The position numbers and the translations under genes were made by a program. 24,281 bases of DNA from a virus: IMG/VR virus record IMGVR_UViG_3300025598_000174, positions 1 to 24,281 of that record; one strand, given 5' to 3'. The notes beneath the pieces are model-generated. The model was not told the origin of the DNA, made no database searches, and worked only from the letters and a program-made list of their open reading frames with translations. This document shows, piece after piece, positions 1,507 to 6,351 of the stretch; position 1 is the stretch's first letter; each line of letters starts with the position of its first letter.

Positions 1507-1926
1507 ATGGATGATATTTTAGATAATCTTAAAGAGTTCTGTAAAACATATAAGTTTGAACAAAAAGAATTTATACAATCCCCTAGGGATGAAGGTAACC
1601 CATTTTATGGTTGCAAACATGATGAAGAAACAAAAAAACATATATCATATATGCAATCAACCAAAATTGGTAATTTAAATCAATTTTATGGTAAAAAACA
1701 TAAACCCGAAACAATAGAATTAAATAGAAAAAAGAATATTGAAATACTCACCAAATTAAAAGGTAAAAAAGTAAATCAATATGATTTGAATGGTAACCTA
1801 ATAAACACATATGATGGTATCCGTTCAGCAGCAAGAAGTGTAAACCTAAAATGTTACAATCAAATTTCTCTTTGTTGTAGAGGTATAAAAGAAAATTATT
1901 GTGGCTATATTTGGAAATACGCTTGA
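1507..1926 (+). CDS. orphan NUMOD-domain protein, homing-endonuclease remnant without a nuclease domain
   Basis: 139 residues. Two NUMOD3-type motifs are visible, NPFYGCKHDEETKKHIS (31-47) and NQFYGKKHKPETIELN (58-73). A NUMOD1-type helix-turn-helix follows: VNQYDLNGNLINTYDG then IRSAARSV (89-112), and a C-terminal CCRGIKENYCGYIWKY block (123-138). These are DNA-binding modules of GIY-YIG and HNH homing endonucleases. No GIY-YIG, HNH or other catalytic motif precedes them; the first 28 residues are unrelated. No Shine-Dalgarno sequence is visible before 1507, and a 7-codon frame at 1491-1514 overlaps the start. It is either a decayed endonuclease or a DNA-binding protein kept without its nuclease. 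Its place beside gp32 is typical for a homing gene. Confidence 0.72.
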   Translation: MDDILDNLKEFCKTYKFEQKEFIQSPRDEGNPFYGCKHDEETKKHISYMQSTKIGNLNQFYGKKHKPETIELNRKKNIEILTKLKGKKVNQYDLNGNLINTYDGIRSAARSVNLKCYNQISLCCRGIKENYCGYIWKYA

Positions 1927-4138: not shown

Positions 4139-5440
4139 TTAACCTTTTTTCTTCATCTGTGGATTTCTATCATCATAGTCTGCATCATTTGATGTGGCTG
4201 ATGTTTGTGTATTAGTTTGATTGATACCAACATTATTTACTATTTGTTGTTTTTTGGCATTGGCTGCCGCATCTTTCATATCTTTATTTTGTTTAGACGA
4301 TTGGTCTATTTGATTACCTGTGCTTATATTATCAGACTGCACGGCTTTTGGTAAATTTTCTGAAAATTGTTTGGCATACTCTGCTCTTTTTGCCGATTCT
4401 TCTTGGCCGCCAGCAAAACCAACTGCTTTGTTAACTTCTACCATGTTTTCTAATTGTTCTGGTTTTTTCTTTTTATAATTCAAAAAGAACCAGGCAACCG
4501 CTTTAGCAGCTACTTTAGGATCATTTAATAAATCTGGATTACTAACAACATCAACGCCTGTATATTTTGCAATGGCTTTGTATTGATTTTTACCTGTGTG
4601 TTGTAAGTAACCTCGGCCTCGGTATTTCCAACCATCTCCTGGTTCTGAATTGCCATCAGTAGTAGCATAAACATGATTAGCCAAGGCTTCTGGATTACCA
4701 ACAAATTGTTGAGCAAACTGTTCAGAAGGTATTCTAGGAGGTTTAAACACCTCAAAAATACGTTTTGCACTCTTGTAATTTAAATTTTCACTTTTAGGTG
4801 TAAAATTAGATTCTGCTTTTACTTGTGCTAGAATGTTCGCCTGACCTTTTTCAGTAACACCGGCTTCAGCTAATGATGATGCCAATAAACCTGCAGCACC
4901 AGCAACGGCAACAGGAATAGCAGGAGTAACTTTGGCTGCAGTAGGCGGTTTACCAGCAGGAGCTTTTGGTGCAGTAGGTTCTGCCTTAGGTGGTACTTCT
5001 TTTGGTTTTACTGCTTCGGCTTTAGGTTTAACTTCTTTAGGTGCAGGTTTCTCTGCGGTAGGCTTTGCCTGTTTAGTAACTTCTTTAGGTGGTGTAAGTT
5101 TTTCTTTTGGTGCTTCTTTAGTAGGCTTCTTTTTTTTCTTTGGTTTTCTACGAACAGTTAGTGCTTTAACGAGTTCATCATTTCTGTCATTCTCGCCTTT
5201 TATATTATCTTTATGTTCTTTTTCCAAATCAGCTCTATGGCTCAGTTCTTCTTCACGAGCTCGTTGCATAGTCATATAGATTAAACCAAGAACTTTTGTA
5301 GAAGAATCAATGGCGGCATAATCAATAGGCTCGGTTGCTTGATGACCTTTAGGTACTTTTTGTCCGCCAAGTAAAGCTTTAACGACTTCTTTACCTACAT
5401 CAGCAGTTTTTTTAGCAATTTTTGCGAGAGCGCCTAACAT
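4139..5440 (-). CDS. tail-associated GH19 muramidase with N-terminal coiled coil
   Basis: 433 residues. Residues 43-95 are a charged coiled coil; 98-172 are a Lys-Pro-Ala-Glu linker; about 178-360 are a glycoside hydrolase family 19 (chitinase/lysozyme-like) domain; the tail is Asn/Thr-rich. In the GH19 domain ILAQVKAESNF carries the probable catalytic Glu210, and SENLNYKSAKRIF, EALANHVYA, GDGWKYRGRGYLQHTGKNQY and NPDLL are the conserved blocks of phage GH19 endolysins. It should cut the glycan strands of peptidoglycan. The long helical N-terminus and its place in a tail gene cluster, without a holin nearby, suggest a virion enzyme for entry rather than a free endolysin. That fits the missing lysozyme domain in the split gp5. 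The GH19 call is firm; virion location is inferred. Confidence 0.82.
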   Translation of the reverse strand: MLGALAKIAKKTADVGKEVVKALLGGQKVPKGHQATEPIDYAAIDSSTKVLGLIYMTMQRAREEELSHRADLEKEHKDNIKGENDRNDELVKALTVRRKPKKKKKPTKEAPKEKLTPPKEVTKQAKPTAEKPAPKEVKPKAEAVKPKEVPPKAEPTAPKAPAGKPPTAAKVTPAIPVAVAGAAGLLASSLAEAGVTEKGQANILAQVKAESNFTPKSENLNYKSAKRIFEVFKPPRIPSEQFAQQFVGNPEALANHVYATTDGNSEPGDGWKYRGRGYLQHTGKNQYKAIAKYTGVDVVSNPDLLNDPKVAAKAVAWFFLNYKKKKPEQLENMVEVNKAVGFAGGQEESAKRAEYAKQFSENLPKAVQSDNISTGNQIDQSSKQNKDMKDAAANAKKQQIVNNVGINQTNTQTSATSNDADYDDRNPQMKKKG

Positions 5441-5443
5441 TTA

Positions 5444-5632
5444 CTATTTTCTTTGTCGTTCTTTAATCTTTTGATTTTCTTCTTCAATGTATTGTATCAG
5501 CATGGAGACGTAAATATCCCTCTCCCAAGGTAACATACTCTCAAGTTCAAACAAACTATACTTATGGTGTTGCATCAATGAAAAGTTTGTTTTGTAATAA
5601 TTGCTCAGATTGTCATGACGAAAAATTAACCG
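5444..5632 (-). CDS. 51: gp51-like frame, probably reached by -1 frameshift from gp26
   Basis: This frame lies -1 to gp26 and runs from the gp26 end to a TAG at 5444-5446, adding 62 codons after the slip site. It includes SLFELESMLPWERDIYVSML and a charged end (QYIEEENQKIKERQRK). The first ATG in frame is at 5575 and would give 43 residues, but no Shine-Dalgarno sequence precedes it (upstream is AAACAAACTTTTCATTG). T4 gp51 is a small hub-assembly factor coded next to gp26, so position supports the gp51 name. The LPWERDIY pattern resembles the C-terminal extensions of tail assembly chaperones. Expression as a 302-residue gp26 fusion is an inference from the slip site. Confidence 0.6.
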   Translation of the reverse strand, partial: RLIFRHDNLSNYYKTNFSLMQHHKYSLFELESMLPWERDIYVSMLIQYIEEENQKIKERQRK

Positions 5633-6351
5633 AAAAAACTTTCAAGTCCTTCGGCTTCAATAGTATGATGATACCCACATTTACTACAATCCATCTCTAA
5701 TACTTCTTTTAACTTTGGTAAATTATTAAAAAATTCTTCTATTTTACCAAACTGTGCTTGGTTCATTCCTTCAACAAAAGACAACATTTCACCAGGTTGT
5801 GCTTCGCTAGCATAATAAAATTGTTCACCATCATAAATGTATTCAATAGATTGTGCCACCATATTAAATGTAACTTCATTAACAGTTTCATAATTTAAAG
5901 AATCTTGTACAATACTAAATTCAGGATACTTTAATTTAATACTAATTTTGTCATCCAATTGAATTTCAGGTGATACAGGATTTTCTTGTGTAACTTTGAT
6001 ATCAGTTAAGTTAATGTCTTTTTCCATGATATTACCACAAACTTTACCATCAACCTCATTATTACACTTGTATCTTGATTCAACAACTTCACCAACAGAT
6101 TTGGCACGAAGATTGATGAAATAATATTCTACATCAATAATAGGCAGTTTACGAACATCAACATTTTCTGTTAAAGTACAGTTATGTAGAATATCTTCAA
6201 CCGCCAAATTGATGGCTTTTGCTTCAGATGCTTCCATGGCCATCAATAGATTGCGTTGTTCTTTTACTAAGAATGGCCGATATTTAATCTTTTTCTGTGA
6301 AACTGGCAATTCAATTTCATATGTTGGTACATCAAGTTTAGGTAATGCCAT
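5626..6351 (-). CDS. 26: gp26-like baseplate hub assembly protein
   Basis: 241 residues (T4 gp26 is 208). It matches the T4 baseplate gp26 family: LPVSQKKIKYRPFLVKEQRNLL near the N-terminus, IIDVEYYFINLRAKSVGE in the middle, and a C-terminal part rich in Phe and Glu. Two cysteine pairs, Cys96/Cys105 and Cys222-x-x-Cys225, look like a split zinc ribbon. In T4, gp26 helps to assemble the hub. AGGAG lies 7 bases before the ATG. The end carries a slippery heptamer leading to the next frame, so two products may be made, in the manner of tail assembly chaperones. Confidence 0.82.
   Translation of the reverse strand: MALPKLDVPTYEIELPVSQKKIKYRPFLVKEQRNLLMAMEASEAKAINLAVEDILHNCTLTENVDVRKLPIIDVEYYFINLRAKSVGEVVESRYKCNNEVDGKVCGNIMEKDINLTDIKVTQENPVSPEIQLDDKISIKLKYPEFSIVQDSLNYETVNEVTFNMVAQSIEYIYDGEQFYYASEAQPGEMLSFVEGMNQAQFGKIEEFFNNLPKLKEVLEMDCSKCGYHHTIEAEGLESFFG
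5632..5652 (-). other. candidate programmed -1 frameshift site
   Basis: On the minus strand the last gp26 codons are AGT TTT TTC GGT TAA. T TTT TTC (5638 to 5632) is a perfect X XXY YYZ slippery heptamer in the gp26 reading frame, three bases before the stop. A Shine-Dalgarno-like GAAGGA (5652 to 5647) ends 8 bases upstream, similar to the stimulator of E. coli dnaX frameshifting. A -1 slip enters the gp51-like frame, open for 62 more codons. No strong downstream hairpin was seen. Confidence 0.6.

Follow-up and report, generated by a model that had tools for sequence, protein, structure and literature searches.

A T4-type phage locus predicted to encode short and long tail assembly chaperone forms through a -1 frameshift on T TTT TTC

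The slippery site of the lambda tail assembly chaperones G and GT is G GGA AAG. In E. coli dnaX, a -1 frameshift on A AAA AAG gives the shorter product and is accompanied by a downstream hairpin and a Shine-Dalgarno-like (SD-like) element that precedes the slip site by about 10 nt. The locus described here lies on a virus record of 24,281 bases that carries T4-type genes and was analysed over its whole length (hereafter the window). It resembles dnaX in having an SD-like element upstream of the slip site but differs from it in that no hairpin was found downstream. Its gp26 shows no detectable sequence similarity to lambda G/GT or to other tail assembly chaperones made by -1 frameshifting; compared with chaperones of the G/GT type it is larger (241 residues) and contains cysteine pairs of the zinc-ribbon type.

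Within the T4-like phages, Vladimirov, Gautam and Davidson reportedly found in 2022 that frameshifting is conserved in several groups, T4 itself using separate genes. According to PMC10885494 and PMC12846349, the reading proposed for the window has already been published by these authors (Virology 2022), and PMC12846349, citing that paper, treats poly-T -1 signals as known in the TAC-N genes of T4-like phages. The published system agrees with the one described here in the gene family, in the short and long forms, in a poly-T -1 signal that occurs in several T4-like groups, and in the separate short and fused long genes of the T4 group; no contradiction between the two was found. The main proposal of the first-pass annotation, a frameshift joining gp26 to a gp51-like frame, was thus correct and, judging from what these sources relay of the 2022 paper, already in print. 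The window phage is a clear new example of the described arrangement and represents no new kind of system. The synonymous-site statistics, the fixed-spacing SD-like element and the Ackermannviridae exception presented below were worked out independently of that paper, and we further add the lack of downstream RNA structure in the window and a weak structural likeness to the HK97 tail assembly chaperone.

The features of the locus are collected in Table 1. At the 3' end of gp26, codons 238-241 read AGT TTT TTC GGT and are followed by TAA, so that the in-frame heptamer lies where the first-pass annotation had placed it. From CGG (first base 5632) onward, the -1 frame comprises 62 open codons, contains the motif LPWERDIY and is closed by a stop whose last base is 5444. 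The predicted products are an unshifted protein of 241 residues and a fusion of 240 + 62 = 302 residues. Re-reading of the sequence returned the same lengths, the same number of open codons and the same spacing of 8 bases between GAAGGA and the heptamer as had been noted at first.

Table 1. Coordinates of the features of the gp26/gp51-like locus (window positions unless a locus is named).
Feature	Position	Strand	Remarks
gp26, short form of the predicted chaperone (TAC-N)	6351-5626	minus	241 residues; TAA stop at 5628-5626
Slippery heptamer T TTT TTC	5638-5632	minus	gp26 frame; 3 bases before the gp26 stop
SD-like GAAGGA, possible stimulator	5652-5647	minus	8 nt before the heptamer; the anti-SD peak at this spacing in relatives is explained in part by a conserved Glu-Gly
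-1-frame extension, gp51-like domain (TAC-C)	5632-5444	minus	joined to gp26 residue 240
First -1-frame ATG	5575-5573	minus	unconserved and lacking a ribosome-binding site; unlikely to be a start
Loci without the heptamer	L094:3205-3405, L189, L190, L191, L194		Ackermannviridae and Vibrio phage D504

Profile searches assigned both parts of the locus. The window gp26 matches PF12322 (T4_baseplate) with an E-value of 1.4e-58 and 198.6 bits against a gathering cut-off of 24.5, and phrog_150 with 8.9e-64. The -1 peptide matches phrog_634, "baseplate hub assembly catalyst" (3e-28), and also the tail portion of the gp26 family phrog_150 (1.4e-5). Since T4 gp51 matches phrog_150 along nearly its whole length, this profile holds the joined form. 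In T4, gp26 (208 aa) matches PF12322 over its full length (8.8e-64), residues 1-201 of gp51 (249 aa) also match full-length PF12322 (3.9e-52), and phrog_634 is matched by the C-terminal part of gp51. When the profile of the window family was compared with that of T4-type gp51, the probability was 96.7% and the E-value 4e-10. AlphaFold2 models of the window gp26 (mean pLDDT 87) and of T4-type gp51 were both confident and present a common order of elements.

T4 gp26 and gp51 are therefore homologous to the window locus in both of its parts, the difference being that T4 has two divergently placed paralogous genes whereas the window has one gene with a frameshift site. Because both T4 proteins contain the full PF12322 domain and gp51 has an additional C-terminus, T4 encodes separately the two forms that other T4-like phages would make from a single gene. 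The idea that gp26 and gp51 are the T4-type form of a chaperone pair was borne out insofar as both belong to the gp26 family. One correction is that T4 gp51 comprises more than the -1 domain: it is a whole paralogous long form, an in-frame counterpart of the predicted fusion, with a gp26-like N-terminus and the extra domain. In an unrooted tree with long branches, the gp51-type N-domains form one well-supported group and the gp26-type proteins another, a grouping that is consistent with one duplication.

In order to evaluate conservation of the slip site, related loci were gathered from viral contigs and phage records by similarity to gp26, starting from the gp26 of the window, of S-PM2 and of KVP40 and from individual phages (in viral contigs the KVP40 gp26 yielded only two loci). 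This gave 173 loci, 120 of them distinct, falling into 53 clusters at 85% identity; none was discarded for a missing heptamer. An in-frame T TTT TTN was found near the gp26 stop in 173 of 173 loci; this set excludes the T4-type records and L094 from the Ackermannviridae, all of which lack the heptamer. The distance from the start of the heptamer to the stop is usually exactly ten bases. Among the distinct sequences the heptamer is TTTTTTC in 115, TTTTTTT in 4 and TTTTTTG in 1, and thinning at 85% identity left the same picture (TTTTTTC in 48 of 53 clusters). A control Phe pair of the same gene, in the motif FFxxxP, is encoded by TTT TTC in only 11 of 106 cases, TTC TTT being the commonest choice. 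The invariance of T TTT TTN beside a variable control pair indicates that synonymous freedom is absent exactly at the -1 slip site. Both the heptamer and the -1 relation are kept in Kyanoviridae, in T4-like phages of Vibrio, Aeromonas, Cronobacter and Stenotrophomonas, and in phages of Sinorhizobium, Caulobacter, Pseudomonas and Rhizobium; the conservation expected among T4-like relatives was thus found. In the Pelagibacter phage Mosig (L083:2980-3040), 31 bases separate the start of the heptamer from the gp26 stop, which means that the usual distance of 10 is not obligatory. In the window itself only 2 in-frame T TTT TTC occur in about 7,810 codons of coding sequence, so that the expected frequency of one falling among the final five codons of any particular gene is about 0.1%.

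The -1 peptide matched 568 of 50,697 phage records by tblastn, and most of the listed alignments begin at its residue 1, immediately after the slip. The -1 frame is open in all collected loci. Within the window clade, pairwise differences over codons 5-19 past the slip amount to 1499, 747 and 7314 at -1-frame positions 1, 2 and 3 respectively, counts that are descriptive only as sequence pairs are not independent. In most of this clade no ATG precedes the stretch. This distribution shows that, at the level of sequence comparison, the -1 frame of the window clade is under purifying selection as a protein ahead of any ATG. The position of the first -1-frame ATG varies, and an Ile codon is found instead in L009, L010, L012, L021 and L042. 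At its two commonest positions the mean anti-SD energy is -0.9 and +0.2 kcal/mol, compared with -4.6 kcal/mol at the gp26 start; where the first ATG lies elsewhere, six sequences show a good anti-SD match (-6.3 kcal/mol). The first ATGs of the relatives are therefore unconserved and mostly devoid of a Shine-Dalgarno sequence, and the window ATG, for which the first-pass annotation had reported no ribosome-binding site, occupies a position of near-zero anti-SD energy in them.

In KVP40 (L086), Cr30 (L089), Marzo (L091) and Vibrio F86 (L193), an ATG in the -1 frame overlaps the gp26 stop, as TAATG or TGATG, and the slip site is present as well. The same overlap is seen in phiM12 and Rhizobium phages, and in S-PM2 an ATG comes close after the stop. 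Reinitiation in KVP40, Cr30, Marzo, F86 and others might add a separate gp51 besides the slip product.

No downstream RNA structure was detected in the window: in pseudoknot-free folding, the sequence that follows the slip site is no more stable than its shuffled versions (z = +1.1 and +1.9), and a downstream hairpin was rejected as stimulator on this basis. Many bacterial -1 frameshift sites have no downstream structure, a feature that is not strictly defining. Upstream of the slip, the best anti-SD match within the last 90 nt of gp26 falls at one fixed spacing (windows starting at -18 to -14), with a mean of -6.2 kcal/mol. This peak follows in part from a conserved Glu-Gly. With clade-specific codon use, the match is 1.2-1.7 kcal/mol stronger than synonymous recoding predicts, 38 of 53 clusters lying above the median; with pooled codon use and no clustering, the excess is present in the S-PM2 group and absent in the window clade. 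An upstream SD-like contact acting as in dnaX is plausible but unproven. Of the stimulator suggested at first, the GAAGGA element 8 bases upstream was recovered, and its role beyond the conserved protein motif has moderate support.

The Ackermannviridae STML-13-1, KpS110, Ds3CZ and fGh-Ecl02, as well as Vibrio phage D504, contain a recognisable gp51-like domain in the -1 frame. Their gp26 genes end in ATT TTC ATT TAA or CTT TTC AAG TAA and have no canonical heptamer. An ATG overlaps the gp26 stop in some of the heptamer-less phages but not in STML-13-1 and KpS110. We tentatively propose, as a possibility held with some doubt, that the slip is stimulated by a dnaX-like SD contact in the Glu-Gly codons and not by downstream structure, and that the Ackermannviridae -1 domain would be expressed through a replacement recoding or coupling mechanism.

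Concerning function, the two PDB entries whose folds best match the window gp26 model are both chains of the HK97 chaperone for tail assembly (2ob9), with E-values of 0.7-1.0 over about 60 residues; this likeness of the modelled fold is suggestive only. A fold search of the PDB with the T4-type gp51 model found nothing, chaperones included, and when the gp26 and gp51 profiles were run against the sequences of solved structures, only chance matches came up. In HTVC008M, Cr30 and phiM12, the next large gene after the locus is tape-measure-like by annotation or PHROG. The window proteins downstream of the locus have no similarity to the HTVC008M tape measure, and the gene next to the locus, which carries a GH19 domain, showed no link to a tape measure. 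Two forms with a common N-terminus are predicted from the slip, the long one corresponding to gp51 in T4. By analogy, we infer that gp26 and its fusion would serve as chaperone of the tape measure.

The gene directly after the frameshift locus (4139-5440, minus strand) encodes a protein that combines a linker rich in Lys and Pro with a chitinase-like domain of the GH19 type. This product matches PF00182 (2.6e-8) and the endolysin family phrog_181 (7e-38), from which it is likely to be a tail-associated lysin. Elsewhere in the window, a small protein (1507-1926, plus strand) adjoining a gp32-like gene carries NUMOD3 and NUMOD1 motifs without a recognised nuclease domain and has the appearance of a decayed homing endonuclease or of a partner to one.

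How far do these observations admit other explanations? A chance poly-T run in AT-rich DNA, lying beside an unrelated open frame, would fit the abundance of slippery-type sites in the AT-rich window, where about 60 other X XXY YYZ heptamers were counted, in line with the initial caution that the heptamer alone is weak evidence. Conservation across phage families and 53 clusters, next to a control Phe pair that varies, speaks against coincidence; its probability is negligible, and we regard it as effectively excluded by the divergent relatives. A separate gp51 protein, translated through termination-reinitiation or from an independent start behind gp26, with the poly-T run incidental, agrees with records that annotate gp51 as its own gene and with the ATGs that overlap the gp26 stop or, in S-PM2, closely follow it. 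In the window clade, however, the -1 frame is selected at the protein level before the first ATG, that ATG is unconserved and mostly lacks a ribosome-binding site, and the codons of the Phe pair are locked as TTT TTC. For the first two of these reasons reinitiation is not the general route: selection ahead of the ATG and near-zero anti-SD energies lead us to reject a separate start as general mechanism, and the explanation as a whole is very improbable.

A frameshift could also be real and its products be structural or catalytic hub proteins instead of tape measure chaperones. The T4 annotation, in which gp26 is called a subunit of the hub and gp51 a catalyst of its assembly, is compatible with this, as is the weak fold likeness to known chaperones. 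On the other side, what typifies tail assembly chaperones is a short/long pair generated by a -1 slip immediately ahead of tape-measure-like genes, and the pair was reportedly published as such in the 2022 paper. We consider hub proteins unlikely, with a small chance of being right. Together, these comparisons make it highly probable that the locus encodes a tail assembly chaperone with a short form of 241 residues and a long form of 302 residues produced by a -1 slip on T TTT TTC. Points that weigh against this reading are the lack of downstream structure in the window, the weak HK97 likeness beside the empty search with T4-type gp51, and the heptamer-less -1 domains of Ackermannviridae and Vibrio D504.

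In the mechanism that we propose for this chaperone, most ribosomes would read gp26 to its stop and release the short form. At the slippery site identified here, a fraction would move back by one base, probably helped by the upstream SD-like contact and by the stop codon located one codon later. The slipped ribosomes would bypass this stop and add the 62-residue C-terminal domain, giving the long form. By analogy with lambda G/GT, both forms may bind the tape measure protein during hub and tail assembly. In T4 the same two forms come from separate paralogous genes, 26 for the short and 51 for the long one.

These findings bear on how the family is read. Annotations routinely present gp51 as an independent hub assembly catalyst whose start is arbitrary, or overlook it entirely: the gp51 part is unannotated in S-WAM1 (L082), ACG-2014b (L087) and LPCS28 (L192), though the -1 frame is intact in each. 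In a large group of marine and freshwater phages, the gp51 product is likely a fusion, and the classical T4 genes 26 and 51 can be read as short and long chaperone forms that now reside on two genes.
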